From a virus: DNA of 33,899 nt. The notes beneath the pieces are model-generated. The model had not been told where the DNA came from. It did not search any database and saw nothing but the letters and a program-made list of their open reading frames with translations. The translations under genes were made by a program, and so were the position numbers. Position 1 is the stretch's first letter. The number at the start of each line of letters is the position of its first letter. The stretch covers positions 1-33,899 of the IMG/VR virus record IMGVR_UViG_3300010299_000025; one strand, given 5' to 3'. This document shows, piece after piece, positions 9,801 to 33,145 of this stretch.

Positions 9801-12072
9801 AGACTTAACTTTCTCTGGAAAAAATTATCTAACTCCTCCTAAAGTAAAACTATTCAATAGTAGTAAGAATTCACTTGACGATTCTTTTAGTGCATTTTGC
9901 ACTCTAAAAGGAAATACTGTTGATCAAATTTCAATTTTAAATCCTGGAAGTGGATTAAGTAGATTTGGAAATAAAATAGTATTTACTGATAATTCTAATG
10001 GAGTAAAGATTCTAAGTGCATCTTCTGTTCAAGATACACCATCAAATTTTGTAATAACATTAACTGTTGAAACTCCTTTATCTGGATTTACAACTTCAAA
10101 TCCACCACCATTTAGTATTAATGATGAAATATTTGTTGAAAATCTTGGTACTAATTTTGACTCTTCAGATTATTCTTATAATACATTCAAAGTAATAGGA
10201 ATAGTTACTAATTTTAGTAGTCAAAATCAAACAACAATAACATATGAAGTTCCAAGAAGTGTTGGAAGTGTAATTTCATATGATAAAGCTTTTGTAATTA
10301 ATGCAAATGATCTTCCAAAAGCAAATGTTTTACTTACTCAAAGTTCATTTATTGCTGGAGAAGAAATTAATAGCGAAAAGACTATATCAAACAAAAAAGA
10401 TAGTTTAACAAAAAATATTGTAAAGATTGAAGATTTAAAATCAATAAAAGTTGGTAATAAAATAAAAGGTAATTTAAGTTCTTCTGAAGGTGAAGTTGTT
10501 AAGATTGATAATTACAATTCAAAATTTAATATTGATAATAGTGCTTCTGAGATATTTGGATGGAAAGAATCTAAAGGTAAACCCTCTTCAAATGAGCAAA
10601 CTTTATCAGATAATGATTACTATCAAAATTTTTCATATTCTTTGAGGAGTAAGTTACAACTTTCTGATTGGAATTCTCAAGTTTCAGATTTAAATCATAT
10701 TTCTGGATTTAAAAAGTTTAGTGATTTGCAGATAGAATCCGAATTTAATTCATCTGTAGTGGAATCCACTGCTTCTTCTGATGTAAATTTATCAATAAAT
10801 TCTTTTGGAGATATAACAACAAAAAATAACTTTGATCTAGTTTTAGAACTAGATATTGAAGATAATAATAATCAGTTCTCAGAACTATTGAAGTTTAAAT
10901 CGAGAAAACTTTCAGATTTTCTACTTTCAGAAGAAAATAGAGTTTTGCCAATAGATAATATTGCATCAAATTTCAATAATCAAGTAAAATTTGCTGAAAT
11001 TGTTGTGGATACTTTACCAACAATTAATACTGGAGGTATTGTTGCGAAATATTTTGTTTTCATAGAATCTACAGCTTCATTGTTTACAGATTTTGAACTT
11101 CCTACATTGGCAGAAGTTTTTATAACTAAAAAAAGTAATGATTTAGATGATGATAATACAAGTGTAATTGCATATTCATATTTTGAAGATATTGACTTAG
11201 GTACATTTACTGCTTCAATAAATCCTCAAAACCAAAATGAAATTTTATTGAAGTTTGTACCAAGGAGTGTTAATAATATTTTGTCTGCAAGAACTATAGT
11301 AGATTTTGTTCCTTTAAATTTAACTACAGAAACTGTACCATATGGTAATGTAAATAGTTTAGCAATTACTACATCATTTTCTGCAGAAAGTTCCCCAACT
11401 CAAAAGGAAGTTATATTATCTTCATTATCTGAGTGTCAATCTGGAACAGTTTATGTAGGAATTTCTTCATCTTCTGGTGTAATTCAAGAATTTAAAGAAC
11501 TTGGATTTAGATATGACGGTACAAATGTTGCATTTTCCGTATATGCCGAAAGTAGAAAATCAGATTTAGGCGATATTGCAGTATCTACTAGTGGTACTGA
11601 TTTAGTTCTTACATATGATGGAGTTCCTAATTTAGGTGTAACTTTATACGTTGACACAATTTTACTTGTAGAAACTGAAACTTCTCCAAATGAAATACAA
11701 AGCGACTTTGGATTGATACGTGGTGATTCATTACAATTTTCAGGAAGTAGTCAGATAGGTATAGCAACTGTTGGGGAAGAATACGCAGTTTCAAATTTCA
11801 TAATTGAAGTTGAAAAGACTGTTGGGAGTACAACAACAAGATCTCTCGCTCAATTAAATGCAGTTCATTATAATGTAAATTTGCCAACTAATAAATATTT
11901 GGCAAATATTACTTATAATGTTGTTGGAAATTTTGATGATTTAGATTTTGATCTAACTTTTGATCCAGGTTCAAATAATTACACTCTTTCTTACATTCCT
12001 TTTGAAAATGCGGCTTTTGATGTAAAGTTATCTCAAAAAAGTATATTAAGATCCACAAATCCATTATTGTAA
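3871..12072 (+). CDS. Giant virion protein in the gp7 position, with YHYH domain and GxGY repeats (2733 aa)
   Basis: This 8.2-kb gene follows gp6, where T4 has gene 7 (1032 aa). The N-terminal 230 residues (IPEFIFTDNPNFEEFLKQYY near the start, SKDFYRSKGTDESFEILFKVLFG at about 200-222) look like a conserved attachment region, so a gp7-like wedge role is likely by position. The rest is beta-rich and repetitive. GxGY-type repeats occur near residues 736, 776, 1105, 1144, 1388, 1908, 1984 and 2026. A YHYH-type domain lies at about 1215-1305: GWAYDGCPIYGPF, then NGRYCITPEYPNGVYAYF. Segments at about 98-122 and 345-368 carry an EIITYTG-type motif. A conserved block near 2195-2290 contains DNDYYQNFSYSL and HISGFKKFSDL. 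Codon use is extremely AT-rich. The product is probably a peripheral baseplate or adhesin-like extension of a wedge protein; direct homology of the whole chain to gp7 is not claimed. Confidence 0.85.
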   Translation: MNQDKKVIKISDVVENQIPEFIFTDNPNFEEFLKQYYISQEFQGGVVDLAENLIDYKNADSFDSSNLITKTTLSSDIDPFSETITVESTTGWPKTYGLLKINNEIITYTGITTNSFTGCVRGFSGIQSVSKENDPEFLVFSQSESDFHTSGDSVENLSNLFLIEFFKKTKSQFIPGFEDLNFDSRIDIPNFISKSKDFYRSKGTDESFEILFKVLFGEKVEVIKPKDFLFTPSDDKWIVVENFICDLVEGDPLKISGQTLFQSENDSGTILEASGSIYAISSFNVRENIFYKVSIFSGFSNNLSPRGSIFGEFKTTAKTYVVSDVSENSSTIPVVSTIGFDRSGKLVIGSSEITYTDKTSTEFLNCSGIVNSISNSTEIYSDNFVFSYEDGDINSIVKLRIVNTISNIDSSDLVLINEGDQINIKGLGSTRNSIFTDSLNYNVPSVISAGKVFPAEEDLGEFEEGININGFVKTKFPHYLKNDDDVEIFNSSRNIKIANAKVSNVNTSRSFIINNSSGLSEFINNEIKIRRIPFRSKSSLYPEVDKKFAVNVQNSYEDTDNYYLESNGFPDNDIKPYKKEYKFTVENENGLLSIISDSNNRSEHIFQNGDIVRVSNIVGVSTVLSNNVDYYIKRINVSSLKLSRSLLNVLKEDFVIPEVDIECTLTSKSLSGKQLTSSKSFKKIPKDIDYTRTEETTKPGSIGVLVNGVEIQNYKSLDKIYFGTLENILVLNSGSGYDLLNPPTFKIGIGSEVDTVSSIIPQLEGKVESIFVDDPGYDYVETPIVTISNGSNEEVKTEVRMKLISRELEFNAGNSDVVATLDTEEKFIFTEPHRLIVGDGVIYDSLSGTKIGIGTESSDGTLLDKSVYYVSSIGAGTSFRLAPTVKDAIDETNLIRLRTLGTGLQKFTSVKKVKVIDSVNLTDINPTLRYKKIVAKADDINKFDNIINIKNHGFLSGDEISYSFSNGSGLTNLSTSEFYYIIKIDNNSFKLSSTKDLESIVDFNLPDNDTVHLFEYSPIKVNIIGSLTVSGISEIGTPAVLTPVVRGSINEVLIESSKTDYNTSARTFLNFNVNPQIKVNDGKGAFLQPVIENGRITNVIILSQGENYFNSLDLEVIGSGSGAKLSPGIVNGKITSVKIVNKGIGYDSNTTIRIKNIGSGFSAIGEIKDYTLNEVDRYKTSILNRGIIVNDVYRPENNIYGVYKLTNTLKNLLGANDSKLHSPIIGWAYDGCPIYGPFAFENNDGTGNIIEMTSSYKKSKIQRITDVIEDFKFVENIGSLDKHNGRYCITPEYPNGVYAYFATSSFPFFIGDTYKFKPLQENFEFNFSQNLDFNKLDIIKYTLPYYVKDQLNYYDYFDYRPNPKKEEAIVLKTLSGDIDNVEVIDSGEGYSIGSKLTFDNDGTGGFGASAEITELSGVGITTINSNTKTVQNITFVSNNNIITGIATTAHNFKDDFFIKISGITDSNFKSLNGVKQINVNEFKTSLDENLDSESNTGIVTSIKIKDSIKIFDIDSEIKISDETATVIGFDYLNNRVNILRESSSPSSSIGSLVELKQNKFSFNESKSLDLPEKDVSYYFNSDLVSLGSDTSAGAGNTVNLEPLGAGVSQTKYIRTAGIWMPNNEFKSGESVSYSNNSAFSDVQSDQSLSSFSELYIVDFGNSVIGLTTIQNDLSGLLYYTDKGTGRLHKLNTNRTVISGQAIFNETVVSTASSHGLDVGDEVSLKVISGLTTTYTTTYNQSDAKLQIDGQNNPEINVYRNQKVVFDTSTDTFLSGSNAEFKLYTDSEYKNEYIGTGTSGVEVVVGVGSLTLNVTDTTLSTLYYNFESDTKKVFDDKTVTNNNRINILESLYNVTSGIVTNTNQTFTINLPSSPEEDNYNSSDSNKLSYTVKKSDVLGPISKIKLTSKGVDYKKIPSIKSIEGDGKSAVLVPTTKNIGRVSEIGPISINVCPSDKTLVPESNSYSVLYLKNNYEVSSIDLTFSGKNYLTPPKVKLFNSSKNSLDDSFSAFCTLKGNTVDQISILNPGSGLSRFGNKIVFTDNSNGVKILSASSVQDTPSNFVITLTVETPLSGFTTSNPPPFSINDEIFVENLGTNFDSSDYSYNTFKVIGIVTNFSSQNQTTITYEVPRSVGSVISYDKAFVINANDLPKANVLLTQSSFIAGEEINSEKTISNKKDSLTKNIVKIEDLKSIKVGNKIKGNLSSSEGEVVKIDNYNSKFNIDNSASEIFGWKESKGKPSSNEQTLSDNDYYQNFSYSLRSKLQLSDWNSQVSDLNHISGFKKFSDLQIESEFNSSVVESTASSDVNLSINSFGDITTKNNFDLVLELDIEDNNNQFSELLKFKSRKLSDFLLSEENRVLPIDNIASNFNNQVKFAEIVVDTLPTINTGGIVAKYFVFIESTASLFTDFELPTLAEVFITKKSNDLDDDNTSVIAYSYFEDIDLGTFTASINPQNQNEILLKFVPRSVNNILSARTIVDFVPLNLTTETVPYGNVNSLAITTSFSAESSPTQKEVILSSLSECQSGTVYVGISSSSGVIQEFKELGFRYDGTNVAFSVYAESRKSDLGDIAVSTSGTDLVLTYDGVPNLGVTLYVDTILLVETETSPNEIQSDFGLIRGDSLQFSGSSQIGIATVGEEYAVSNFIIEVEKTVGSTTTRSLAQLNAVHYNVNLPTNKYLANITYNVVGNFDDLDFDLTFDPGSNNYTLSYIPFENAAFDVKLSQKSILRSTNPLL

Positions 12073-16403: not shown

Positions 16404-19400
16404 ATGTCACAAAGCACAAATTTAAATGTCAATCCATATTATGACGATTTTGATTCCCAGAAAAACTACTATAAAGTACTTTTTAAACCTGGAGTAACAG
16501 TTCAGGCTAGAGAACTTACAACTCTACAGTCTATTTTACAAGATCAAATTGAAAAGTTTGGTAGTAGTTTTTATGCAAATGGTGGTATTGTAATTCCAGG
16601 AAACTTTGCTTATGACGGAACTTTTACTTGTGTTGAAGTAGAATCTACGTACAAAGGAGTTGATGTAGAAACATATTTTAATTCTTTAATTGGAAAAATT
16701 GTAAAAGGTAAAAATACAGGAATTACTGCAAAAATAGAAAGTGTTTTATCTAGAAATAATTCTATAAGAGATACAACAACTTTATATGTTAAGTATCAAA
16801 ATTCTTCCTCAGAGGACTTTTCTACAGAAATTTTTGAAAATGGTGAGGAATTATCAGTAACTTCTAATGTATCAATAGGAAATACTTTAATTGAATCTGG
16901 ACAGGATGTTTTTAGAGTAATTTCTCCACTTGATAGAAGTGCTTGTTCTGTTGGTTCTGCTGCAAAAATTGAGTCTGGAGTTTACTTTGTAAGGGGATTC
17001 TTCGTAGATATAGACTCAGACTTAATTATACTTGATCAATATACTAATACTCCTTCATATAGAGTTGGATTAAAGATAACTGAAAGCATTGTAGATGCTA
17101 ATGATGATTCTTCACTATTTGATAATGCTCAAGGATTTTCAAATTTTGCTGCACCAGGGGCAGATAGATTTAAAATATCCTTAACTTTAACTAAAAAAGA
17201 ACCTGATAATTTCGTTGATAATGATTTTATAGAACTATTTAAAGTTGAGAATGGTATAGTTAAAAAGATCAAGCAAAATGATAAATTTTCATTTATAAAT
17301 GAAATTTTAGCAAGAAGAACTTTTGATGAATCTGGAAATTATTATGTTTCTCCTTTTGAAGTAGAATCTTTTGAATCTTTAAATGATAGATTAGGAAATC
17401 AAGGATTATATTTAAGTAATGAAAAAACTCCTGATGGATCTACTCCGTCAGATGACTTAGCGGTATTGAAAGTATCTCCAGGAAAAGCTTATGTAAAGGG
17501 ATTTGAAATATCAACTTCAGATGAGATTTTAGATTTACCAAAACCAAGAAATACTAAAGAAGTAGAATCTTCATCTAGCAATTTTTATGCTGCTAATTTA
17601 ATTAAAGTTAATAATGTTCAAAGTTTACCTAAAATAGGTCTAACCACTGATTTTACAGTATCTCTTTATGATACTAGATTGGATGGTTCTGCTTCAGTTT
17701 CAGCAGGAACTACAATTGGACTTGCAAAAATATATGATTTTGAATCTGACAATACTTCTTATGTAGATGCATCAAGTCAATCTAACTTGTACCTATTTGA
17801 CATTCAGACATACACAAACTTGACTTTGAGTAGTTCGGTAAGTGCAGGAATGGGAGAGTATATTCAGGGACAATATAGCAACGCCTCAGGATATGTTCAA
17901 TCTGGTTCTGGTGGTAATTTATCTTTATATCAAGTTTCTGGTGAATTTCTAGATAATGAACCTTTAATAATTTCAGGTATTTCTACAAATACAACTATCA
18001 CTGAAATTGAAGATTACTCTATACAAGATGTAAAATCTTTTGGATTTGGTGATGATTTTGCTGCAGATACACTTTTATCTAAAGAATTATTAATTGATGG
18101 TCCGTTTGATTTTGAATCATCTGCAGGGGTTGCTACAATTACTAGATTCGATGGAAGTGCATTTGCTACTGGATTTAAAGTTAATGATATTGTAAAATAT
18201 TCTAGAACTGGTGGAGCTAACGAACCAAGATTTGCTAGAATTACTAGCATCAATTCTTCTTTAACTGGAATTGGAGTTACTGATGTAGCTAATGTTTCAA
18301 ATGTTTGCACTGGAGATATTGACAGCACTACAACTCTACAAACTATTAAAATAATTAGACCAGAAGTTATAAACTTCGAGGATTCTTCATTATATTCAAG
18401 ACTGAATAATACTAATATTTCAGAAATTAGTTTCTTAAATTCCAGTATTTTTATTAAGAAGTATTACGATGGTCAAACTATTTCTGGCAATTCTATCACA
18501 CTTCCATCTCTACTCAATACAGATTTTGTCTATGCAGCTTTTGACGAGGAGAGATATAGTCTAGTAGACGACTCTGGTAATGGTGTAAATTTATCTTCTG
18601 CAACATTTAATATTACAAATGGCGGAAAAGATGCAGAATTTACAGGATTAAGCGTAGCAACTGCTTCTTCAGCAAAAATAATAACTACTCAAATTAAATC
18701 AAATATTTCACAAAAATTCAAAAAACTGCAAAAAGCACAGTCAGTTGTACTAAACAGAACAAAATATAGTCCTACTAGAAATGGTGGATTAACTAATTCT
18801 ACTGTATATGGAACTAGAGTTGAAGATAATGAAATAAGTTTAAATTATGCAGATATAGTTGAAGTTCACGGAGTATACCAATCTTCAACTACATCAGATC
18901 CAGAGTTACCTTCTATTACATTTTCTGGTGCGAATTCTAGTAATTTTAAACTAGGAGAAGTTTTAATAGGAAAAACTTCTGGTGCTGTTGCAGTTTATGT
19001 AGAGCAAAACTCAAATAGTAAAATTTCTTTCGTTTATAAGTCAAATAACAAGTTTATTGTAAGTGAAGTTGTTGAATTTCAAGATTCTTCACAAAATGCA
19101 ACAGTATTAACTGTAAATGAAGGTGAAGAAAATATAATTTCAGACTTTATCTTAGATAACGGTCAAAGAAAGCAGTTTTATGATTTTGGTAGGTTAGTAA
19201 GAAAAGAATCTACAAAAGAACCTTCTTCTAGATTGAAAATTGTATTTGATTATTTTAAATTTGAATCAACAGATTCTGGAGACTTAGTTGGAGCAAATAG
19301 TTATCAAGAATTTTTAGATAAAGATAAAATTCCATTCTTTAATGGTTTGAGAAACTCTGACTCGATTGATATTAGGCCAAGAGTATCTGATTATAATACT

Positions 19401-22400
19401 GCATCGTCTATGAGTCCATTTGATTTCAAATCAAGGTCTTTTGATACTAGTTCAAACAATTCTACACAAGTACTTTCTTCTAATGAATCTATAGTTTTTG
19501 ATTATAGTTTTTACTTACCTAGAATTGATAAACTAACTTTAGATAAAAATGGTAAATTTGATTTGGTATTTGGTGAATCTAGTGAAACACCAGTTAAACC
19601 ACAAATATCAGAAGATGTATTAGATGTTGCAACAATTTTAAGTTCTGCTTATGTTTATGACGTAAACAGAGACATCGATATTGTATTAACTGACAATAGA
19701 AGATTTACTTTTTCTGATATAAGAGATATTGAAAAGAGAGTTGATAATCTTGAATTAACAAGCACATTATCTCTTCTTGAAGTTGACACTAAAAATCTTT
19801 TAATCCAGGATTCTGAAGGTTTCAATAGATTCAAGTCTGGATTTTTTGTAGATGATTTCCAAAATTTTGATACTTCAGATGTTAAATCACCAATTTTCAA
19901 AGCAAATATTAGTAATGGATCTTTAAAGTCTGAAGTAAATAAAAACAGAATTACACTTAAGTTAGATTCAAATACTAATACTCAAATAACTGGACATACA
20001 CTAACATTAAGTTATTCTGAGAATGATTATCAAAAACAACCATTTGCAAGTAGAATTGTAAATGTAAATCCATTTAATATTGTAACTTGGACTGGAAAAC
20101 TTGAATTAAATCCATCTAATGATAGTTGGACTATAGAAATTTCTTCTTCTGAAAGAGTTGGTAGTGCTACAAGAGGAGGTGAAACAGAGGTTATTAGATC
20201 TTCTAGATCTATAGAATTCATTAGATCTAGAAATATAGAGTTTATTGGAACTAGATTAAAACCTTCTACTGAGTTTAGTTTGATATTTGACTCTAGAAAT
20301 CTCTCTTCAAATTTAACAGGAACTACTTATGCATTCCCCAAATTACTACAAATAACAAGTGTAGTTGGAACATTTAATGTTGGTGAGACTGTTAATGGAT
20401 TTGATAATAATGGAAATAGAATCTCATTTAGAACTTGTACAGCAAATCATAAGACTGGAGTATTCAACAATCCAGATTCAACTTATAATATTAATCCTTA
20501 TGATCCAACTGTACAACTTCCTTCAAGTTATGGTCCACAGTCTACAGTATTGAATGTTGATACATCATCATTACAAATTTCAAACGAATCTTCTTTCTTT
20601 GGAAATGCTACTTCTGGTATGAGATTGTTTGGAACAGAAAGTGGAGCAATAGCAACAATATCTGCATTAAAACTAGTATCAGATGATAACGGAACTTTAA
20701 TAGGAAGTGTATTTATTCCTGATCCAGATTCAAGTTCATTGAAATTTAGAACTGGTAATGCTTCTGTGAAGTTAACTACATCTACTGCAGGTTTAGGAGT
20801 TCCAGGAGAATTTACCAGCACTGCAGAAACTGTCTTTAATACTTCAGGAACTAGAATAGAGATTAGGACTGTTACTTATTATGATCCTCTAGCACAGACA
20901 TTCATTGTAGATGAACCTGAAGGGATTTTCCCAACTTCTATTGATGTTTTCTTTGCTACTAAAGACGATACAATACCAGTTACACTTCAGATTAGAGAAG
21001 TTATAAACGGTATTCCAGGTGGTCCCGATAAGATTGTTGGAAGTTTAGAAAAGATTTTAAATCCAAATGAAGTTAAAGTTAGTAAAGATTCTTCGGTAGC
21101 AACAAACTTCAAGTTTGATAATCTAACTAGATTAGAAGGAGGTAGAGAATATGCTATTGTTCTTATTTCTGATTCAAGCGACTATCAAGTTTGGATTTCT
21201 AGAGTAGGGGAAATTGAAATTTCTACACAATCATTCACTGAAGCTCAGAAAGTTTTAATCAGTAAGCAACCATCTTTAGGATCTTTATTCAAATCCCAAA
21301 ATGGAACTACTTGGATTCCAACTCCAGAAGATGATCTTAAATTTACAATTAAGAATGCTAAATTTAATACTACAGGAGGAACTTCAACATTCTTCAATAG
21401 TGAAGTTAATGCAAGATCAAATGAAAATAAACTTGCTCCAAATTCAATCTTCTCAATATCAACAGATGCCTCAGAATTCAATAATGGAAGATATATTCTA
21501 GTTTTTCATCCAAATCATGGAATGTATTCATCAACTAATAAAGTTGTTATTGAGGGAGTTAAATCAGATATTCTTCCAGAAAAATTAACAATTGGGTATG
21601 GTATTACATCTTCTGGTGCGATAGACGTATCAGATTCTACAATATTCCAACAATTTGAAGGATCTACAGTTAGTAATTCTGATGCTTATATTGAGATTAA
21701 TGGTGAGATTATAAAATATGAAAATGTTTCTGGAAATCAATTAACTGATATTACAAGAGGTCAATTTGGAACTAAACAATTAGATCATCCAGTAAATTCT
21801 TTAGTACGTAAGTATGAATTTAACAATGTTTCTTTGGCCGGAATCAATACGGAACACGATGTAATTAGTCCAACAATAGATTCTTACTATGTACAAGTAG
21901 AATCTGGAAAACAATTCAGCGAAAGTAAATTTGGTGGTGGTGATAAAATATTTGCCTCAAGAAATAAGCAATTTAGTAAATTAGAATTTGAGAATAATTT
22001 TATTAGAAAATTTGAATCCACTTCTGTAGATTCTTCTATTAGAACAGTAAGTTCTACTAGTGTAGATGGAACAGAAGTATCATTTAAAGATAAAGGATTT
22101 GAATCTGTCGGTATTAATAGTACAAATACATTTACAGATCCAAGAATGGTTTGCTCTAGAGTTAATGAAACTACATCATTAAATTCCAATCAATTCAAGG
22201 ATAATAAGTCATTCACTTTACAATTAACATTATCAACTGATAATGAAGACTTATCTCCTGTAATAAATTTGAATAATTCAAATTTAATTGTAGAAAATAA
22301 TAGAATAAATCAACCAATTAGCACAAATTCTTATCCTGTAGACGGTAGAGTTAATTCAAATGTTGATGATCCAAATGCTTTAATTTATGTTTCTAATAGG

Positions 22401-22766
22401 ATTGAATTGGCGCAAAGTGCATCTTCAATAAAGGTTTTACTTTCAGCATTCAGATCACAATTTTCTGATATTAGAGTTCTTTATAAGATTTTTAGGGACG
22501 ATACTCCAGATGAAAGTCAAGTTTGGCAGTTATTCCCAGGATACTTGAACCTTGATGTAAATAATAAAATTGTTGATCCTTCTAAGAATGATGGTAGATC
22601 TGATAAATTAGTTCCATCTAGTTTTGAAGATGAGTATCGTGAATACTCATTCACAATTGATGACTTACCACAATTTACATCATTTGCTGTAAAGATTGTT
22701 GGTACAAGTACAAATCAAGCATTCACCCCAATTATAGAAGATCTAAGAGTTATTGCATTAAAATGA
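16404..22766 (+). CDS. Large DUF4815-type virion structural protein (2120 aa), gp10 position
   Basis: The N-terminus reads NVNPYYDDFDSQKNYYKVLF, then KPGVTVQARELTTLQSILQ, which is the signature of the DUF4815 family of phage structural proteins. A further family-like block at about 1100-1150 has DIEKRVDNLELTSTLSLLE followed by GFNRFKSGFFVDDF. The protein also carries an EINGEIIKYENVSGNQLTDI segment at 1764-1783 followed by TRGQFGT, a module type also seen in the giant protein and in gp18. The C-terminal 150 residues (LSAFRSQFSDIRVLYKIFRDD) look like a compact conserved beta domain. By position it corresponds to the T4 gp9/gp10 region, so a peripheral baseplate or fibre-attachment role is likely; in marine phages such proteins are often called gp10-like or simply structural. 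Its stop overlaps the next start by four bases (ATGA). Confidence 0.85.
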   Translation: MSQSTNLNVNPYYDDFDSQKNYYKVLFKPGVTVQARELTTLQSILQDQIEKFGSSFYANGGIVIPGNFAYDGTFTCVEVESTYKGVDVETYFNSLIGKIVKGKNTGITAKIESVLSRNNSIRDTTTLYVKYQNSSSEDFSTEIFENGEELSVTSNVSIGNTLIESGQDVFRVISPLDRSACSVGSAAKIESGVYFVRGFFVDIDSDLIILDQYTNTPSYRVGLKITESIVDANDDSSLFDNAQGFSNFAAPGADRFKISLTLTKKEPDNFVDNDFIELFKVENGIVKKIKQNDKFSFINEILARRTFDESGNYYVSPFEVESFESLNDRLGNQGLYLSNEKTPDGSTPSDDLAVLKVSPGKAYVKGFEISTSDEILDLPKPRNTKEVESSSSNFYAANLIKVNNVQSLPKIGLTTDFTVSLYDTRLDGSASVSAGTTIGLAKIYDFESDNTSYVDASSQSNLYLFDIQTYTNLTLSSSVSAGMGEYIQGQYSNASGYVQSGSGGNLSLYQVSGEFLDNEPLIISGISTNTTITEIEDYSIQDVKSFGFGDDFAADTLLSKELLIDGPFDFESSAGVATITRFDGSAFATGFKVNDIVKYSRTGGANEPRFARITSINSSLTGIGVTDVANVSNVCTGDIDSTTTLQTIKIIRPEVINFEDSSLYSRLNNTNISEISFLNSSIFIKKYYDGQTISGNSITLPSLLNTDFVYAAFDEERYSLVDDSGNGVNLSSATFNITNGGKDAEFTGLSVATASSAKIITTQIKSNISQKFKKLQKAQSVVLNRTKYSPTRNGGLTNSTVYGTRVEDNEISLNYADIVEVHGVYQSSTTSDPELPSITFSGANSSNFKLGEVLIGKTSGAVAVYVEQNSNSKISFVYKSNNKFIVSEVVEFQDSSQNATVLTVNEGEENIISDFILDNGQRKQFYDFGRLVRKESTKEPSSRLKIVFDYFKFESTDSGDLVGANSYQEFLDKDKIPFFNGLRNSDSIDIRPRVSDYNTASSMSPFDFKSRSFDTSSNNSTQVLSSNESIVFDYSFYLPRIDKLTLDKNGKFDLVFGESSETPVKPQISEDVLDVATILSSAYVYDVNRDIDIVLTDNRRFTFSDIRDIEKRVDNLELTSTLSLLEVDTKNLLIQDSEGFNRFKSGFFVDDFQNFDTSDVKSPIFKANISNGSLKSEVNKNRITLKLDSNTNTQITGHTLTLSYSENDYQKQPFASRIVNVNPFNIVTWTGKLELNPSNDSWTIEISSSERVGSATRGGETEVIRSSRSIEFIRSRNIEFIGTRLKPSTEFSLIFDSRNLSSNLTGTTYAFPKLLQITSVVGTFNVGETVNGFDNNGNRISFRTCTANHKTGVFNNPDSTYNINPYDPTVQLPSSYGPQSTVLNVDTSSLQISNESSFFGNATSGMRLFGTESGAIATISALKLVSDDNGTLIGSVFIPDPDSSSLKFRTGNASVKLTTSTAGLGVPGEFTSTAETVFNTSGTRIEIRTVTYYDPLAQTFIVDEPEGIFPTSIDVFFATKDDTIPVTLQIREVINGIPGGPDKIVGSLEKILNPNEVKVSKDSSVATNFKFDNLTRLEGGREYAIVLISDSSDYQVWISRVGEIEISTQSFTEAQKVLISKQPSLGSLFKSQNGTTWIPTPEDDLKFTIKNAKFNTTGGTSTFFNSEVNARSNENKLAPNSIFSISTDASEFNNGRYILVFHPNHGMYSSTNKVVIEGVKSDILPEKLTIGYGITSSGAIDVSDSTIFQQFEGSTVSNSDAYIEINGEIIKYENVSGNQLTDITRGQFGTKQLDHPVNSLVRKYEFNNVSLAGINTEHDVISPTIDSYYVQVESGKQFSESKFGGGDKIFASRNKQFSKLEFENNFIRKFESTSVDSSIRTVSSTSVDGTEVSFKDKGFESVGINSTNTFTDPRMVCSRVNETTSLNSNQFKDNKSFTLQLTLSTDNEDLSPVINLNNSNLIVENNRINQPISTNSYPVDGRVNSNVDDPNALIYVSNRIELAQSASSIKVLLSAFRSQFSDIRVLYKIFRDDTPDESQVWQLFPGYLNLDVNNKIVDPSKNDGRSDKLVPSSFEDEYREYSFTIDDLPQFTSFAVKIVGTSTNQAFTPIIEDLRVIALK

Positions 22767-25395: not shown

Positions 25396-26250
25396 ATGTT
25401 TGGAACTTACTTTTATAATAAAATAATTACAAAACACGTTGTAGCATTTGGCACGTTATTTAATAATATATCGATTAAAAAGCAAGATCAATCTGAAAAT
25501 GATCTTTCTATTTTTAAAGTTCCAATTTCTTACGGACCAGTACAAAAATTTCTAGCAAGGATTGAACAAGATCCAAATGCAAGTAGAAAGATTGCAACAA
25601 CCTTGCCAAGAATGTCTTTCGAAATGGTTTCTATTGATTACGATGGAACTAGAAAATCTTCTGTAATTCAAAAATTCAAAACAGCATCGGCAACTGATAG
25701 TACTGATATTAAAAATGTTTTTGTGCCGACTCCGTATAATATTCAATTTGAGTTGAATATTATGTCAAAGCTTCAAGATGATGTACTTCAGATCATAGAA
25801 CAAATACTACCATTTTTTCAACCATCTTTCAATCTTTCAATTAATTTTATTCCTCAAATTAATGAAATTAAAGATGTTCCAATAATATTAAATAGAATTA
25901 ATTTTAGAGATAATTACGAAGAAGATTTCAGAACTAGAAAGATTATAAATTATACATTAACTTTTACATTAAAAACATACTTATATAGTGAAATTCCATC
26001 AGATCAAGATGGTCTAATTAAAAAGGTTCAGGTCGATTATGCAACTGATGCATTGAGGAGTGCTAAGAGAGAAATTAGATACACATCAACTCCAAAAGCT
26101 CTTGAAGACTATAACGATGATGGTCAGATAAACTCTCTTGACGATCCATTTATTGAAATTGGAGATGATTTCGGATTCAACAGAGATCTACAAGAATTCT
26201 CAGACTTTAAAACTTACAGTCCAAATCAAGGAATTGATGTTGATGTATGA
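25396..26250 (+). CDS. gp15: Tail sheath stabiliser and terminator gp15
   Basis: The 284-residue product (T4 gp15 is 272 aa) starts MFGTYFYNKIITKHVVAFGT and has FKVPISYGPVQKFLARIEQD at about 41-60, typical of gp15. In T4, a gp15 hexamer caps the sheath and tube and joins the tail to the neck. Residues 238-249 spell DYNDDGQINSLD, which matches a dockerin-type or EF-hand calcium loop (acidic or amide side chains at loop positions 1, 3, 5 and 12, Gly at 6, Ile at 8). The segment just after it, FIEIGDDFGF, is also acidic. An AGAGG ribosome binding site lies eight bases before the ATG. The stop overlaps the gp16 start by four bases. Confidence 0.9.
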   Translation: MFGTYFYNKIITKHVVAFGTLFNNISIKKQDQSENDLSIFKVPISYGPVQKFLARIEQDPNASRKIATTLPRMSFEMVSIDYDGTRKSSVIQKFKTASATDSTDIKNVFVPTPYNIQFELNIMSKLQDDVLQIIEQILPFFQPSFNLSINFIPQINEIKDVPIILNRINFRDNYEEDFRTRKIINYTLTFTLKTYLYSEIPSDQDGLIKKVQVDYATDALRSAKREIRYTSTPKALEDYNDDGQINSLDDPFIEIGDDFGFNRDLQEFSDFKTYSPNQGIDVDV

Positions 26251-26696
26251 GTATGATGGAAAAAAAGTATGAAGGATTAGAAAAAGCTTTAAATATCAAA
26301 ACTGATATTGATAAAGCTATTGATACAGAAGTAGTATCAAATGAAATTGTAGATGTTAATCCTGATGAAAAAGAATCTAATGATCCAGAAAAAGATTATG
26401 AATATACTAGAGAAAATCTTTATAAGTTAATAGATAGAGGTCAAGAGGCAATTGAAGGAATTCTTGAATTAGCACAGGAATCTGAACATCCAAGAGCGTT
26501 TGAAGTTGCTGGTCAGTTAATTAAATCTGTTGGAGACGTTACAGATAAGTTATTAGATCTTCAGAAGAAGATGAAGGATTTAGATGCTCCAAATAAAAAA
26601 GGAAACACAACAGTAAATAATGCACTTTTTGTTGGATCTACAGCAGAATTATCTAAACTTTTAAAACAAGGTCTTCTAAATAATAAAGAAGAATAA
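26247..26696 (+). CDS. gp16: Terminase small subunit gp16
   Basis: The 149-residue product fits gp16 of T4-like phages (T4: 164 aa). It has an acidic N-terminal part and a central helical region, YTRENLYKLIDRGQEAIEGI at about 51-70 followed by AFEVAGQLIKSVGDVTDKLLDLQKKM, the family's oligomerisation coiled coil, then a tail with NNALFVGSTAELSKLLKQG. In T4, gp16 forms rings that recognise concatemeric DNA and stimulate the gp17 ATPase and cutting. ATG at 26247 overlaps the gp15 stop (ATGA); the methionine codons two and three codons later are alternatives. Unusually, the large subunit gp17 does not follow; three other genes lie between. Confidence 0.87.
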   Translation: MSMMEKKYEGLEKALNIKTDIDKAIDTEVVSNEIVDVNPDEKESNDPEKDYEYTRENLYKLIDRGQEAIEGILELAQESEHPRAFEVAGQLIKSVGDVTDKLLDLQKKMKDLDAPNKKGNTTVNNALFVGSTAELSKLLKQGLLNNKEE

Positions 26697-26705
26697 TCTT
26701 AACTC

Positions 26706-27734
26706 ATGAAATCACTTAATTTAAATGAGGAGGGACTACGTGATTGGTTTGGAAAGTCCAAATCTAAAGATGGTAAAAAAGGTTGGGTTAATGTTGTAAC
26801 AGGTGATTCTTGTGCAAGTGACAAGCCTGGTGAGGGCATTCCTAAGTGCGTATCTTCTGAAAAAAGAAATAGTATGTCAAAGAAAGAGAGACTTGCTGCA
26901 GCTGCTGCAAAAAGAAGAGAAGATCCAAGACAACAAGAAAAATCTGGAGCATCTTCTCCAACGATGGTAAAAACCGACAGAGAAACTAGGAAAGAAGAAA
27001 TGGACACAAGAAGAGCACCAGCAGAATTAGTTGCTAGATTGAGTGCCAGAAGAGAAGGAGAGATGGCAAAAGATGGTCCTAACAAACCAGCATATGATGC
27101 TAAGCAAAGACTTCTTGCTAAAACAAAAGCAAAAAGAATGAAAAATAAAGAATTAGAGTTAGAAGAAGCAAAAGATAAAAAAGGAAAGGGAAGTGGTAAA
27201 AAAGATGCTTGCTATAGTAAAGTAAAATCACGTTACAGCGTTTGGCCATCTGCTTATGCATCTGGAGCATTAGTAAAATGTAGAAAGGTAGGTGCAAAAA
27301 ATTGGGGAAATAAGTCTGAGTCTGCAGAAGCTAATGCTAAAATGTTAGCAGGTGAAAGATATTGTGATCTCTGCCAAAAGATGGAAAAAAGAGATGAGTG
27401 TATGTATGGTCCTAAAATGTGGGATAAGCATTCAAGAGGAATTAGTGAAGATTGTGTACCAGAACAAAAAACTTTTGATCAATTCATTTTAGAATCTGCT
27501 GCTTGGACAAGAAAAGAAGGACAGAATCCTGAGGGTGGACTCAATGACGCAGGACGTAAGTCTGCCAAAGCAGATGGACATAACTTAAAACGACCTTCAA
27601 AGAAAGTTGGTAATAAGAGAAGAGATTCATTCTGCAAAAGAATGAAAGGTATGAAGGAGAAACTCACTTCTGCCAAAACTGCTAATGATCCAGATAGCAG
27701 AATCAACAAAAGTTTAAGAGCTTGGAATTGCTGA
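26706..27734 (+). CDS. Basic, cysteine-containing multidomain protein between terminase genes (342 aa; DUF5872/DUF6321-like modules)
   Basis: Three basic modules follow one another. Module 1 (about 16-91) has GKKGWVNVVTGDSCASDKPG, then EGIPKCVSS and a Lys/Arg-rich helix, resembling what I know as DUF5872-type sequences. Module 2 (about 166-250) has KDACYSKVKSRYSVWPSAYA and later CDLC (220-223), C232 and C250, possibly a metal site. Module 3 (about 265-342) has AWTRKEGQNPEGGLNDAGRK and ends DPDSRINKSLRAWNC, resembling DUF6321. Between them lie LELEEA (150-155) and KTFDQFILES (255-264). The latter resembles the T4 capsid-targeting and gp21-cleavage signal, which normally stands at an N-terminus. 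No enzymatic motif is recognised. The high charge suggests DNA binding, and the cleavage-like sites suggest a protein packed into the prohead and processed; both are inference. The ATG follows gp16 by nine bases. Confidence 0.8.
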   Translation: MKSLNLNEEGLRDWFGKSKSKDGKKGWVNVVTGDSCASDKPGEGIPKCVSSEKRNSMSKKERLAAAAAKRREDPRQQEKSGASSPTMVKTDRETRKEEMDTRRAPAELVARLSARREGEMAKDGPNKPAYDAKQRLLAKTKAKRMKNKELELEEAKDKKGKGSGKKDACYSKVKSRYSVWPSAYASGALVKCRKVGAKNWGNKSESAEANAKMLAGERYCDLCQKMEKRDECMYGPKMWDKHSRGISEDCVPEQKTFDQFILESAAWTRKEGQNPEGGLNDAGRKSAKADGHNLKRPSKKVGNKRRDSFCKRMKGMKEKLTSAKTANDPDSRINKSLRAWNC

Positions 27735-27735
27735 T

Positions 27736-28041
27736 ATGAAAAGTTTTCAAGAATTTCTTTCCGAAGGAGTCACTATTCAAGGTGACTTCAATGGAAATAT
27801 GTACATAGGTCAGGAACAAACACAACAGCAGGAGACTTATTCTGCTGATATTGTTTGGGAAGGCAAGTTATACAGATTGGAAATGGAAGGTGAAATGATT
27901 CCCAAAAATAAATTAGCAGAGCAAATTCAGGGTGAATATCCTGGAGCAATTGTTCATCAAGTTTATCCTGGTGAAAATTCATCATCTAGAATTAAAAGTG
28001 CTAAGAGATATCAACCAGAAAGATTGCAATGGAGTGACTGA
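27736..28041 (+). CDS. Candidate internal head protein with capsid-targeting-like N-terminus (101 aa)
   Basis: The product starts MKSFQEFLSEG. From memory, T4 internal head proteins carry a ten-residue capsid-targeting sequence of the form MKTYQEFIAE, cut after the last E by the prohead protease gp21, whose sites have the form (L/I)-x-E. Here M-K-S-F-Q-E-F-L-S-E matches it at six positions exactly and at the other four conservatively, and L8-S9-E10 fits the cleavage rule. The mature part would be about 91 residues: a Gln-rich stretch, a compact domain (YSADIVWEGKLYRLEMEGEM, then IPKNKLAEQIQGEYPGAIVH) and a basic tail with SRIKSAKRYQPERLQ. No known domain is recognised. The ATG comes one base after the previous stop and the next gene starts two bases after its own. 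Confidence 0.75.
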   Translation: MKSFQEFLSEGVTIQGDFNGNMYIGQEQTQQQETYSADIVWEGKLYRLEMEGEMIPKNKLAEQIQGEYPGAIVHQVYPGENSSSRIKSAKRYQPERLQWSD

Positions 28042-28043
28042 AT

Positions 28044-28799
28044 ATGCCATTTAAAAATTACTTATGGGACGAGGCATGGGAACTCAATGTTTCTCGTGGT
28101 AAAGTTCGTGGTGCATTTCACATCATAAAGTTTGGTAATAATGATGACATTGATGGTTCATTAGAGACCATCTGGGATGGTGGTGGTCTTTATACATACC
28201 TAACTTCTGCAGGAGTTTTAACAGTTACAAGTACAGATAGTGATGATTCAGAATCTGGAACTGGTGCAAGAACTGTGACTGTTGAAGGTCTTGACTCCGA
28301 TTTTAATCAAGTTTCAGAAACTTTAACTGTTGGTGGTTCTGCAGGAACTGTAGAATTCTATAGAGTATTTCGTGCATTTGTTGCATCTTCTGGTTCAACT
28401 GGAAGTAATGAAGGAACTATTAGTATAAATCAAGGTGCAACAAATCTTGCACAAATTCGTACTGTAGGTTCTCCAAGTTCAAGTGGACTTGGACAGACCT
28501 TTATGGCATTATATACAGTCCCTGCTGGATACACTGGATATATCTATCAATTTGACGTATCAACTGCGAAAGCGGATGGTGATGTTTACTTAATGAAAAG
28601 ACTTCATAATCCAAATGATGGTGCATGGAGAGCACAGGACACGATTCATACCAATGTAAATAGTGTTGAGAGAGAATATAAATTTCCAATCAAAATTCAA
28701 GAGAAAGCAGATATTGAAGTAAGGGCATTATCTCCCACTAATAACATGAAGTGTGCTGCAACTTTTTGTATTCTATTAGTTCAAAATAACGATACTTGA
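28044..28799 (+). CDS. Beta-rich virion protein candidate widespread in marine phages (251 aa)
   Basis: The 251-residue product has an N-terminal block with FHIIKFGNNDDIDGSLETIW and DGGGLYTYL, then a run of beta-prone Ser/Thr/Gly-rich sequence containing SGTGARTVTVEGLDSDF and FYRVFRAFV, and a C-terminal part with YTVPAGYTGYIYQFDVSTAK. I recognise this arrangement (FGxN.DID...ETIWDGGG; GTGA..V.V.GLD; F.RVFRA) from many marine phages of different types, where it is usually annotated as structural or unknown. A capsid decoration or fibre role is plausible, not shown. There is no signal peptide or membrane segment. Composition is less AT-rich than the baseplate genes (21 of 60 bases G or C at 28081-28140). 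It lies between a possible internal head protein and the large terminase. Confidence 0.75.
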   Translation: MPFKNYLWDEAWELNVSRGKVRGAFHIIKFGNNDDIDGSLETIWDGGGLYTYLTSAGVLTVTSTDSDDSESGTGARTVTVEGLDSDFNQVSETLTVGGSAGTVEFYRVFRAFVASSGSTGSNEGTISINQGATNLAQIRTVGSPSSSGLGQTFMALYTVPAGYTGYIYQFDVSTAKADGDVYLMKRLHNPNDGAWRAQDTIHTNVNSVEREYKFPIKIQEKADIEVRALSPTNNMKCAATFCILLVQNNDT

Positions 28800-28806
28800 T
28801 TTTAAT

Positions 28807-30453
28807 ATGCCAGATAATATATACCTAGGTAATCCTTTATTAAAAAAAGCTAATACTCCAATTGAATTTAGTGAAGATCAAATTATTGAATTCATTAAAT
28901 GTAAAGAGGATCCAGTTTATTTCGCAAAAGAATATATTAAAATTGTAAACGTAGATAGGGGATTGATTCCCTTTGAAATGTATGATTTTCAAACAAAGTT
29001 AATTGATAACTTTCATAAGCATAGATTTAATATATGTAAAATGCCAAGACAGAGTGGTAAAAGTACCACTGTAGTTTCATATCTTTTACATTATGCACTT
29101 TTCAATGATAATTCAAATATTGCAATTCTTGCTAACAAAGCATCTACAGCAAGAGATCTTTTAGGTAGATTACAAACTGCTTATGAAAATTTACCGAAGT
29201 GGTTGCAACAGGGAGTTCTTGCCTGGAACAGGGGATCTTTAGAAATTGAGAATGGATCTAAGATTGTAGCAGCATCAACATCAGCATCTGCTGTTCGTGG
29301 TGGATCTTATAATATAATATTTTTGGACGAATTTGCATTCATCCCAAATCATCTTGCAGATCAGTTTTTTGCATCTGTATATCCTACAATTTCTTCTGGT
29401 AAATCAACTAAAGTAATTATGGTTTCTACCCCCCACGGTATGAACCATTTTTATCGTTATTGGCACGACGCTGAAAGAGGAAAAAATAAGTATGTGGCAA
29501 CTGAGGTTCATTGGACTGAAGTTCCTGGAAGAGACGATAAATGGAGAGAAGATACAATTGCAAACACTTCTGAACAACAATTCAGAGTTGAGTTTGAATG
29601 TGAGTTCTTAGGTTCAGTAGATACTCTTATTGCTCCTAGTAAGTTAAGGAGTATGGTATATGATGATCCAATTAATAGAAATGCAGGTTTAGATATATAC
29701 GAAAATCCAATATCTGGTAATGATTACTTAATTACTGTCGATGTAGCAAGAGGAGTTGAAATTGACTATTCAGCATTTGTAGTTTTTGACATATCGACTT
29801 TTCCTCATAAGGTAGTTGCAAAATATAGAAATAATGAAATAAAACCAATGATATATCCATCAGTTATACATCAGGTTGCGAAGTCATTTAATAATGCATT
29901 TATATTGTGTGAGGTTAATGATGTTGGAGATCAGGTAGCAAGCATTTTACAATATGATTTAGAGTATGAGAATCTTCTTATGTGCTCAATGCGTGGAAGA
30001 GCTGGTCAATTAGTTGGTCAGGGATTTTCCGGTAAGAAGACTCAACTTGGAGTTAAAATGTCTAAAGTTGTTAAAAAGGTAGGTTGCTTAAATTTAAAAA
30101 CAATAATAGAAGAAGATAAACTTATATTCAATGATTATGAAATTATTTCAGAACTAACTACATTCATTCAAAAATCAAACTCTTTTGAAGCTGAAGAAGG
30201 ATGTAATGATGACTTAGCAATGTGCCTTGTAATTTATGCTTGGTTGGTTGCTCAAGATTATTTTAAAGAACTAACTGAACAAGATGTAAGAAAGAGATTA
30301 TATGAAGAGCAAAAAAATCAAATTGAGCAAGATATGTCCCCCTTTGGATTTATTATAGACGGAAGAGAATCTACATCAATAGTAGATAAAGAAGGTGATG
30401 TTTGGCAACTAGATGAATACGGAGATAGATCATATATGTGGGAGTATAGATAA
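28807..30453 (+). CDS. gp17: Terminase large subunit gp17 (packaging ATPase and nuclease)
   Basis: The 548-residue product (T4 gp17: 610 aa) has an N-terminal ATPase and a C-terminal RNase H-like nuclease. The Walker A motif is RQSGKST at 81-87, and Walker B is IIFLDE at 170-175 with D174 and the catalytic E175, followed by VSTPHG, a coupling-type motif. In the nuclease half, the expected acidic triad is visible as D312 (ITVDVARG), E369 (CEVND) and D468 or D469 (CNDDLAMCL). The enzyme pumps DNA into the prohead through the portal and cuts the concatemer at headful. All key residues are present, so it looks functional. It begins seven bases after the 251-aa gene, with no clear Shine-Dalgarno sequence. 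Confidence 0.96.
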   Translation: MPDNIYLGNPLLKKANTPIEFSEDQIIEFIKCKEDPVYFAKEYIKIVNVDRGLIPFEMYDFQTKLIDNFHKHRFNICKMPRQSGKSTTVVSYLLHYALFNDNSNIAILANKASTARDLLGRLQTAYENLPKWLQQGVLAWNRGSLEIENGSKIVAASTSASAVRGGSYNIIFLDEFAFIPNHLADQFFASVYPTISSGKSTKVIMVSTPHGMNHFYRYWHDAERGKNKYVATEVHWTEVPGRDDKWREDTIANTSEQQFRVEFECEFLGSVDTLIAPSKLRSMVYDDPINRNAGLDIYENPISGNDYLITVDVARGVEIDYSAFVVFDISTFPHKVVAKYRNNEIKPMIYPSVIHQVAKSFNNAFILCEVNDVGDQVASILQYDLEYENLLMCSMRGRAGQLVGQGFSGKKTQLGVKMSKVVKKVGCLNLKTIIEEDKLIFNDYEIISELTTFIQKSNSFEAEEGCNDDLAMCLVIYAWLVAQDYFKELTEQDVRKRLYEEQKNQIEQDMSPFGFIIDGRESTSIVDKEGDVWQLDEYGDRSYMWEYR

Positions 30454-30508: not shown

Positions 30509-33145
30509 ATGGCTTTACGCTTAGCATCTCCAGGGATTAATATTAGGGAAGTAGATTTAACTAGAGGATCAGTAAATGCTACTTCTAGTTTATCTGCGGG
30601 AATTGCAGCACCATTTGAAAAAGGTCCCGTAGAGGAAGTAACTGAGATTCGTAATGAAAATCAGTTGTTTGAAACGTTTGGAAGACCAAGTAAAAATGAT
30701 TTTCATTATGAGTATTGGTATTCAGCAGCAAACTTTTTATCTTATGGGGGAAGTTTAAAAGTAGTAAGAGCAGATTCTTCTAATCTTAAAAACTCAAATG
30801 CTGGAGTTGGCGAAGCTTCATCATCAACCCTTAAAATTAAAAATTTTGAAAATTATCAAGAAGGTTCTACTGGATACTACTGGGCGGCAAAAACTCCAGG
30901 ATCCTGGTCAGAATCAGTAAGAGTTTGTGTAATTGACAATCTTGCAGATCAAACTTTTTCTGGATTAAGCACTTCGTTAATTACTGTTGGAGCTGCAATT
31001 ACTCAAACAGTTTCTTCTGATGAATCTTTAAGAGGAATTGTAACTGGAGTAGGAAGTTCCGAGTTTTATGTTAAGGTTGTAGGAAAGGTCAATACTTCAA
31101 CTGGTACTGCAGTAACAACTTCACAAGAATATACTGAAAGAGGTAAATATTCATTCAAAACAGGATCTGATTTTTATATAAATGGATCTTTAGGAGCAGG
31201 AACAACTTCAGTTTCTGTATCTAGAGCAGGTTTAGGAACAGAATCTGCATCAACAATTGGAGCAGGAAGAAGTTTCACTTTATTAAATGAAATTGGAACT
31301 ACTACATTACAACTAGCTGGAGGAGATACTTTTACTGTATCTGATTCAGAGGCTATTGTAGCAAGCAGTTCTGGAATTTCTGTAAATAATGTTATTTTAA
31401 TAGGAACAGAACTTTTTAGAGTTAATAATGTTCTTGGTAACAACTTATCAGTAAGAGATAGTGGAGGTGTTAGTTTCAATGGTTATGGAACAACTCAAAC
31501 AGAGCATTTGGATGGAGATACTGTAACAATTTTTGAATTACAAGCTAGTGCTGTAGAGATTACTGAAGAAGTTTCTTCAACTGATACTACTTTAAAATTG
31601 AATACTATTGGAGATGTCACAGCAAATGATTATTTAATTCTTCAAGATGAAAGTAATGCTGCTGTATATGGTGAAATACTTAAAGTAGATACAGTTTCAA
31701 ACACTGGAGTATTAACTCCAAATACTATTGAAGATTGGTACAATACACAATCTTTACTGAGTACTGCAGATGGTGATTCTACAAATATTTTGTGGAGAGA
31801 TGTAGCACCAAAACCAAGAACTAATGATTATGTTTCATCTAGAAATGGTGGAAATGATTCTTTCCACTTAGTTGTAGTTGATAATTTGAAGGGATCAAAT
31901 AACAATAATAATGTAACACAAGAAAGATTAGAAACATTCCTAAATCTTTCAAAAGCAACAGATGCAAGAATTTCCCCATCTCAAAAAATTTATTATAAGG
32001 AATATCTTGAATTAAATTCAGAGTACATTTACGCTGGAAGTGTATTAGGTGCAACTGATACTTTCTGGAAAGTAAATCCTGTTGCTTCTAACTTCTCAAG
32101 TGGAAACACTCCAATTTCAACTTCATTAGGATTATGGGGACAAGAAGCTTCCGGAGTATTCTTCAACTCAATTGGAAACAAATCATTCACTCTTACTGGT
32201 GGTAAAGATTACTCCGGAACTAATAACGTAGGAGGTTTCTCAGTAGGAGTTGCTGACATTGAGAGTGCTTATAATGAATTGTCAAATGAAAATGAAGTAG
32301 AATTAAACTTCTTACTTCAAGGTGGAGCATCTGGAACTACTGAGGATGAACAGAGAAAAGCAAATTATATAATTAATATTGCCCAAAATAGAAAAGATTG
32401 TGTGGCATTTATTTCTCCAAACAGATCTAGTGTAGTTACTCCAACAACACAAGCTCAAAAATTAGAGAAAATCCTAGAATTCTTTACACCATTGATTTCT
32501 TCATCTTATGCAATATTTGACTCTGGATATCAATATGTATTTGATAGATTCAATAATGAGTTTGTATATATGCCTTGTTCTGGTGATATTGCTGGACTTT
32601 GCGTAAGAACTGACATTGATCAGTTCCCTTGGTTCTCACCAGCAGGAAAGGTTAGAGGTACTTTAAATAATGTAATAAAACTAGCATATAACCCTAATCA
32701 ATCTGATAGAGATAGTCTTTATTCAAATAGAATTAATCCAGTTATAACTTCTCCAGGTTCAGGAACAATTTTATTCGGTGATAAGACTGCACTTTCATTC
32801 AGTTCAGCATTTGACAGAATAAATGTTCGTAGATTGTTTATTACAATAGAACAAGCAATTAGATCTGCTGCTGATGCTCAATTATTTGAGTTTAATGACA
32901 GTTCAACTAGAGCTAACTTCATAAATATCGTAGATCCATATCTAAGAGATGTTCAAGCAAAGAGAGGAATTACTGATTTCCTCTTAATTTGCGATGAAAG
33001 TAATAATACTCCAGCGGTTATTGATCGTAATGAATTTATAGCAGACATCTACGTAAAACCAGCTCGTTCAATCAACTTTATTGGACTTACATTTGTTGCT
33101 ACGAGAACTGGAGTTTCATTCCAGACCGTCGCAGGTACAGTTTAA
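30509..33145 (+). CDS. gp18: Tail sheath protein gp18, enlarged
   Basis: The start SPGINIREVDLTRGSVNATS, followed by SLSAGIAAPFEKGPVEEVTE, is the typical N-terminus of T4-like contractile sheath proteins. The C-terminal part has DRINVRRLFITIEQAIRSAA near 770-790 and INFIGLTFVATRTGVSFQTV at the end, the conserved sheath core. The protein is 878 aa against 659 in T4. The added sequence lies in the variable middle, roughly 110-430, and includes VILIGTELFRVNNVLGNNLS (295-314), then GTTQTEH and LDGDTV, a module also seen in the baseplate giants. Such surface domains would project from the tail. Sheath subunits stack around the gp19 tube and contract on infection. A perfect late promoter and a strong ribosome binding site precede it. 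Confidence 0.94.
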   Translation: MALRLASPGINIREVDLTRGSVNATSSLSAGIAAPFEKGPVEEVTEIRNENQLFETFGRPSKNDFHYEYWYSAANFLSYGGSLKVVRADSSNLKNSNAGVGEASSSTLKIKNFENYQEGSTGYYWAAKTPGSWSESVRVCVIDNLADQTFSGLSTSLITVGAAITQTVSSDESLRGIVTGVGSSEFYVKVVGKVNTSTGTAVTTSQEYTERGKYSFKTGSDFYINGSLGAGTTSVSVSRAGLGTESASTIGAGRSFTLLNEIGTTTLQLAGGDTFTVSDSEAIVASSSGISVNNVILIGTELFRVNNVLGNNLSVRDSGGVSFNGYGTTQTEHLDGDTVTIFELQASAVEITEEVSSTDTTLKLNTIGDVTANDYLILQDESNAAVYGEILKVDTVSNTGVLTPNTIEDWYNTQSLLSTADGDSTNILWRDVAPKPRTNDYVSSRNGGNDSFHLVVVDNLKGSNNNNNVTQERLETFLNLSKATDARISPSQKIYYKEYLELNSEYIYAGSVLGATDTFWKVNPVASNFSSGNTPISTSLGLWGQEASGVFFNSIGNKSFTLTGGKDYSGTNNVGGFSVGVADIESAYNELSNENEVELNFLLQGGASGTTEDEQRKANYIINIAQNRKDCVAFISPNRSSVVTPTTQAQKLEKILEFFTPLISSSYAIFDSGYQYVFDRFNNEFVYMPCSGDIAGLCVRTDIDQFPWFSPAGKVRGTLNNVIKLAYNPNQSDRDSLYSNRINPVITSPGSGTILFGDKTALSFSSAFDRINVRRLFITIEQAIRSAADAQLFEFNDSSTRANFINIVDPYLRDVQAKRGITDFLLICDESNNTPAVIDRNEFIADIYVKPARSINFIGLTFVATRTGVSFQTVAGTV

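Follow-up and report, generated by a model that had tools for sequence, protein, structure and literature searches.

In bacteriophage T4, the prohead protease gp21 removes both the propeptide of gp23 and the 10-residue capsid-targeting sequence (CTS) of the internal proteins; residues 4 and 7 of the CTS direct targeting, and residues 8 and 10 direct cutting (PMC9026906, PMC9958956). The protein family described here resembles the T4 internal proteins IPI, IPII, and IPIII (and Alt) in being basic, apparently targeted to the prohead, accompanied by an S77 protease, and, as judged from relatives, located inside the head. Its leaders resemble those of the T4 proteins in their aromatic residues 4 and 7 and in the I8-x-E10 found where the cut falls. 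The T4 proteins differ in that each gives a single product minus its 10-residue leader, whereas this family joins several unrelated modules with repeated internal sites. Family searches revealed no sequence similarity to the T4 internal proteins; given this lack of relationship, and given that cleavage is only inferred, filing the chain as a T4 internal protein would be unwarranted. The inner head proteins of phiKZ and SPN3US are likewise cut after x-x-Glu by an S77-related protease at several sites each, but removal of their propeptides leaves one mature product rather than a string of separate products. Polyvalent proteins, including DarA and DdrB of P1, are also long, multi-module, packaged or predicted to be so, shuffled, and sometimes proteolysed (PMC5512222). 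In contrast to the small basic modules and separate head protease of the present family, they carry enzymatic or otherwise known domains and embedded peptidases; a Pfam search for known catalytic or conflict domains in our chain and seven relatives matched DUF6321 only. The DUF6321 and PHROG 727/3477/4689 entries, which match one module (M3) or the chain, offer neither a function nor a processing model.

The window, i.e., the whole stretch of 33,899 nucleotides that was analyzed, is a 33.9-kb fragment of a T4-like cyanophage that ends after gp19; among named records, Synechococcus phages of the S-8S55/S-CAM9 kind come nearest. The region 5' of terS holds neck and sheath-stabiliser genes of T4 type, and tail sheath and tube genes lie 3' of terL. 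The genes around the chain are as follows.

26247-26696, plus strand: terminase small subunit terS (gp16), given for context.
26706-27734, plus strand: 342-aa chain of basic modules, the proposed head polyprotein (phrog_727 match, E 1.4e-102).
27736-28041, plus strand: neighbor gene of 101 aa, with the leader MKSFQEFLSE up to a predicted cut, then a stand-alone relative of module M8 (WEGKLYRLEM...YPGAIV).
28044-28799, plus strand: phrog_8198 protein, 251 aa.
28807-30453, plus strand: terminase large subunit terL (gp17), given for context.

The 342-aa ORF was confirmed from ATG to stop, and its limits and motifs (LELEEA at residues 150-155, KTFDQFILES at 255-264) had been placed exactly by the sequence-only reading. 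That reading also set the gene between the terminase genes; terS and terL do flank it, but the two small genes at 27736-28041 and 28044-28799 intervene before terL. The S-SCSM1 gene SSCSM1_31, placed like the second of these, is labelled as a virion protein. Elsewhere in the window, the tail sheath gene (30509-33145) encodes 878 aa, compared with 749-753 aa in S-SM1 and Syn9, and the neck and tail region holds very long ORFs at 3871-12072 and 16404-22766 (2733 and 2120 aa).

The whole chain is strongly basic (net charge +33, pI 9.8). Its sole Pfam match is DUF6321 (PF19846) at residues 273-340 (62.8 bits against a gathering cutoff of 28.5, E 5e-17), and its PHROG matches carry no function. The modules follow the order M1-M9-M2-M5-M3, with these features.

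26706-26729, plus strand: N-terminal leader MKSLNLNE, residues 1-8, short, CTS-like, and ending in LxE.
26730-26978, plus strand: module M1, EGLRDWFGKSKSKDGKKGWV..., residues 9-91.
27003-27143, plus strand: module M9, RRAPAELVARLSARREGEMAKDGPNKPAYDAKQRLLAKTKAKRMK, approximately residues 100-146, without Cys.
27159-27167, plus strand: predicted cleavage motif LEE, residues 152-154, in the M2 register.
27168-27323, plus strand: module M2, AKDKKGKGSGKKDACYSKVKSRYSVWPSAYASGALVKCRK, residues 155-206.
27354-27443, plus strand: module M5, RYCDLCQKMEKRDECMYGPKMW, residues 217-246, with C-x2-C-x8-C.
27441-27449, plus strand: predicted cleavage motif ISE, residues 246-248.
27468-27494, plus strand: internal segment KTFDQFILE, residues 255-263, resembling a capsid-targeting sequence and closing with the motif ILE.
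27495-27731, plus strand: module M3 (DUF6321), SAAWTRKEG...LRAWNC, residues 264-342.

The chain had been described as three basic, cysteine-containing modules; its basic character stands, but five recurrent modules were counted and one of them, M9, lacks Cys. Four [IL]-x-E sites are present, ending at LNE8, LEE154, ISE248, and ILE263. Cutting at all four would yield three basic products, 9-154 (16.3 kDa, +12), 155-248 (10.5 kDa, +11), and 264-342 (8.8 kDa, +13), and an acidic linker, 249-263 (-3). With five modules and only four sites, M1 would not be separated from M9, nor M2 from M5.

Structural searches were uninformative. AlphaFold gave a mean pLDDT of 52 and a pTM of 0.22 for the whole chain, for which a PDB fold search returned no match, and a sequence search of solved structures with the chain found nothing at E up to 1. 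M3 was modelled as mostly helical (pLDDT 73); with no PDB match below E 7, no claim is made about its fold. A metal site, envisaged earlier within residues 166-250, could not be confirmed by structure prediction: pLDDT falls below 50 at M5, and visual inspection of the family reveals no more than three Cys of the four Cys/His ligands of a zinc site.

Homology searches place the chain in a large and mosaic family. Using tblastn, we detected it in 491 phage records (367 Synechococcus, 59 'Cyanophage', 41 Prochlorococcus, and 11 Pelagibacter), and IMG/VR yielded more than 280 relatives. The family is present in about 500 cyanophage and related records and is uncharacterised, with no description found in the literature on DUF6321 or on cyanophage head polyproteins. 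About ten modules recur, in 93 distinct orders across the 230 unique proteins that contain at least two module types; M9, for example, occupies a different chain position in locus L061. The modules are recognized by the signatures GLRDWFGKSKSKDGKKGWV (M1), KDACYxKVKSRYSVWPSAYASGALVKCRK (M2), CWKGYEKKGMK (M4), RYCxxC...C (M5), KDHExSMA (M6), WSxKYKKSIDC (M7), WRGxxYxLxMFFP (M8), and ANIHAKRKRGE (M11), with M3 corresponding to DUF6321 and M9 and M10 also recurrent.

For five unrelated modules, we took the 20 residues upstream of each in non-redundant sequences and counted hydrophobic-x-Glu (Psi-x-E) at every offset. The motif occurred at one register per module, i.e., in 31/59 sequences for M1, 32/39 for M2, 28/51 for M3, 43/91 for M4, and 7/9 for M7; in a control from an earlier run, in which these 20 residues were shuffled 300 times, the maximum count at any offset was 4-10. 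The two defining positions were coupled, since P3 was hydrophobic in 143 of the 162 cases with Glu at P1 and in 7 of the 89 with another residue there, and the columns around the site were variable (P2, P4-P8), with P3 and P1 the exceptions. Of 251 boundaries, 224 had Psi-x-E in the 14 residues before them, and 42 had hydrophobic-x-Asp there. Glu is roughly two to five times commoner than Asp in the stretches upstream of boundaries; such Glu-rich linkers do not explain the register or the P3-P1 coupling.

The same motif closes the gp23 propeptide of these phages, which ends in LME, LAE, LNE, or LTE in all eight available sequences. T4 gp21 prefers Leu or Ile at P3. Family-wide, P3 at the joints is I, L, V, M, or F, with Val the commonest (48/143); this frequent Val counts against cleavage, being unpredicted from T4 and absent from the gp23 sites here, which all have Leu. 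The behavior of M3 is a further complication. An internal LNE is present in M3 of 45/51 relatives, implying either that M3 is also cut or that the motif alone is insufficient. At the last position of GGLNx in M3, Glu is found in 28 of 32 chains (giving the LNE site) and Ala in 31 of 34 stand-alone genes (LNA), a difference that may reflect an extra cut in M3 or simply a difference between lineages. The M3 of the window has LND where other chains have LNE; Asp at P1 of the T4 CTS blocks processing (PMC9026906). When modules were tested for internal avoidance of Psi-x-E, M1 and M2 showed it but M3 did not, and the avoidance is therefore not general.

The segment KTFDQFILE had been likened to the T4 CTS MKTYQEFIAE, and the two agree at every functional position. 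The pattern K[ST][FY]xxF[ILVM]xE arose in 5 of 200,000 shuffles of the window protein. Across all chains, the strict pattern was found seven times, compared with 0.015 expected from shuffles, either beside M3 or at the N-terminus; instances include KSFEQFIGE (S-T4), KTFGNFMIE (L216 and L228), and KSFRQFVLE (N-terminus of L282). The N-terminus of the window chain, MKSLNLNE, is short and degenerate relative to the CTS of about 10 residues, and the perfect CTS-like segment lies within the chain, at 255-263. Leaders in relatives take the forms MKSFRQFVLE, MKSLNLFINE (L268), and MKTFKQYITE, the last beginning the chain of the T4-like relative S-SZBM1_192, which ends in M3. CTS-like N-termini were found in 101 of the 6,825 ATG ORFs of the fetched loci, nearly all of them in genes of the same type as the window neighbor (27736-28041) and the rest in a few other families and in some chains of the present family. 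A KTFxxF leader is not a general property of M3 proteins, since only close relatives and three other loci have one; the cleavage motif, in contrast, is family-wide. As a separate observation, the basic S-CREM2 protein gp136 (L347:1302-2015), whose gene adjoins terS, has the CTS-like N-terminus MQTFSMFFSE followed by D and is represented in virions by 8 peptides (PMC10665884 Table 3), making it another candidate for a targeted internal protein.

Several modules also exist as separate genes. Stand-alone M3 genes encode 79-90 aa and start with MAK[ST][AP]AWQRKEG, only a few residues from the predicted cut between E and SAAWTRKEG. The suggestion that M3 derives from an independent, capsid-targeted protein is borne out insofar as such genes exist, but those in non-S77 phages lack a KTFxxF leader. 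The internal CTS-like segments by M3 and the leader-bearing, M8-type neighbor gene support the inference that, in the window lineage, M3 was formerly a gene of its own with a leader. In the Roseobacter phage CRP-901 (L342:2974-3751), M2 (54 aa), M1, and an HVA1-type gene are unfused and in tandem; the public record annotates only the HVA1-family gene, leaving the basic M2 and M1 genes ahead of it unannotated. M3 and M11 are adjoining separate genes in the T7-like P-SCSP1o and fused as M11-M3 in S-CAM4, where the chain is preceded by MRDYKELKELCE up to a predicted cut. In podoviruses, scaffold, capsid, and tail genes often surround the stand-alone gene, although not in Greip or Lederberg. Peptidase_S77 was present in 19/19 of the records examined with fused modules and in 0/16 of those with only stand-alone modules, several of which are fragments; an HK97-type protease (S78) was also absent from these 16. 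Given that all S77 phages here are T4-like, and so one broad lineage, the two sets are not phylogenetically independent, and the contrast is consistent with processing without being independent proof of it.

Evidence that the chains reach the virion comes from relatives. S-CREM2 ORF160 was found in CsCl-purified virions with 7 unique peptides and 13.1% coverage (PMC10665884 Table 3); this protein (gp160, 128342-129235) has the module order M1-M4-M2, and LSE, LEE, and ISE stand before its modules. S-SCSM1_29, a seven-module chain at the position of the window gene, is labelled 'virion protein' in its record. Mass spectrometry of S-SCSM1 virions identified 45 proteins (PMC9602691), whereas we counted 48 such labels in the record, among them a RegA-like repressor and neither terminase subunit; the label is therefore strong, if not exact, evidence of detection. 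The S-SM1 homologue is annotated as hypothetical, though 41 virion proteins are reported for that phage, and S-SZBM1_192 is not among the 30 detected S-SZBM1 proteins. Small basic products give few usable tryptic peptides, and thus absence from virion lists is weak evidence.

S-CREM2 also offers a possible link to the capsid. Residues 16-42 of gp160 (L344:4242-5135) read EMMAAGATGFTGAAAPEGPVAGYDPL directly after IKE, and the mature arm of the phage's own gp23 reads APTQAVGADGFTGAAAPGGPNAGFDPV directly after LTE; the gp160 segment GFTGAAAPxGPxAGxDP matches this mature N-arm, which suggests a possible docking to the capsid interior. Similar mimics of the gp23 arm (GFTG...GPxAG[FY]DP) occur in S-SCSM1_97 (L334:43121-43306) and at loci L269, L055, L073, L074, L021, and L141. 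They are found in small cyanophage proteins and some family polyproteins, in some cases directly after Psi-x-E.

We consider it probable, at about 0.72, that the window gene, from a T4-like cyanophage, codes for a polyprotein that is processed in the prohead and whose products are kept in the head with the DNA. The main claim of the sequence-only reading, a processed head polyprotein, is well supported, with cleavage, DNA binding, and injection remaining inferences. The chain would enter the prohead core through its CTS-like leader and internal CTS-like segment, where the S77-family gp21 would cut after hydrophobic-x-Glu at the joints; the site pattern is observed and the cutting inferred, as no neo-N-terminus has been observed in published data. 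In the window, these cuts would set free the leader, the acidic linker 249-263, and the three basic products; the basic products would remain in the head with the DNA like T4 internal proteins, in keeping with the virion presence of relatives. DNA binding or neutralisation by the products is probable, on the basis of charge alone, and their injection is possible, by analogy with T4. Free swapping of modules, evident from the mosaic, would make the chain an interchangeable cassette of putative cargo.

The motif and the virion data could also be accommodated by a multi-domain basic virion protein that is never cut, with Psi-x-E acting as a structural cap or linker element. Published peptides are tryptic only and reveal no termini, the motif could have been inherited with each module, and the internal LNE of M3 is presumably not always cut. 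We nevertheless think an uncut protein unlikely, since the motif stands before five or more unrelated modules, at an offset particular to each and with variable P2, shows the P3-P1 coupling, closes N-terminal CTS-like leaders as well as the gp23 propeptide, and is missing from stand-alone versions in non-S77 phages.

Low and partial virion coverage, as for gp160, and the many Psi-x-E sites in long linkers (1072, compared with 735 in shuffles) would fit a component of the core or scaffold, comparable to T4 gp22, gp67, or gp68, which helps prohead assembly and is cut to peptides that mostly leave, such that the modules are not cargo. This seems distinctly improbable for modules that are highly conserved, basic, mostly spared by the sites (0 within M1 versus 7.4 in shuffles, and 0 within M2), and found as stand-alone genes in phages without such a protease. 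The common order of terS, polyprotein, and terL, together with the basic modules, raises the prospect of a DNA-packaging accessory that works with terminase on cytoplasmic concatemers and is not a head protein. Very little weight can be given to this, as the S-CREM2 copy lies far from the terminase genes (128 kb versus 107-111 kb) and is present in the virion, podovirus stand-alone modules sit among scaffold, capsid, and tail genes, and the chains have CTS-like leaders.

A wider proposal extends the prohead-processed polyprotein to marine T4-like phages in general. These would possess an in-head cargo system in which unrelated small DNA-associated modules, found as separate genes in other phages, are joined, packaged together via CTS-like leaders or mimics of the mature gp23 arm, and released in equal quantity by the head protease, with the cleavage site as a universal adaptor for swapping any module. 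This proposal is tentative, and we give it slightly less than an even chance. T4-like cyanophages are among the most abundant viruses in the ocean. If processing of the chain is confirmed, a function and a processing map would be available for a large set of unknown genes (about 500 records), and packaged cargo in a tailed phage would be shown to undergo polyprotein processing; the predicted new N-termini can be checked in existing virion mass-spectrometry data. The swapping of modules hints at a variable cargo, possibly directed against host defences.
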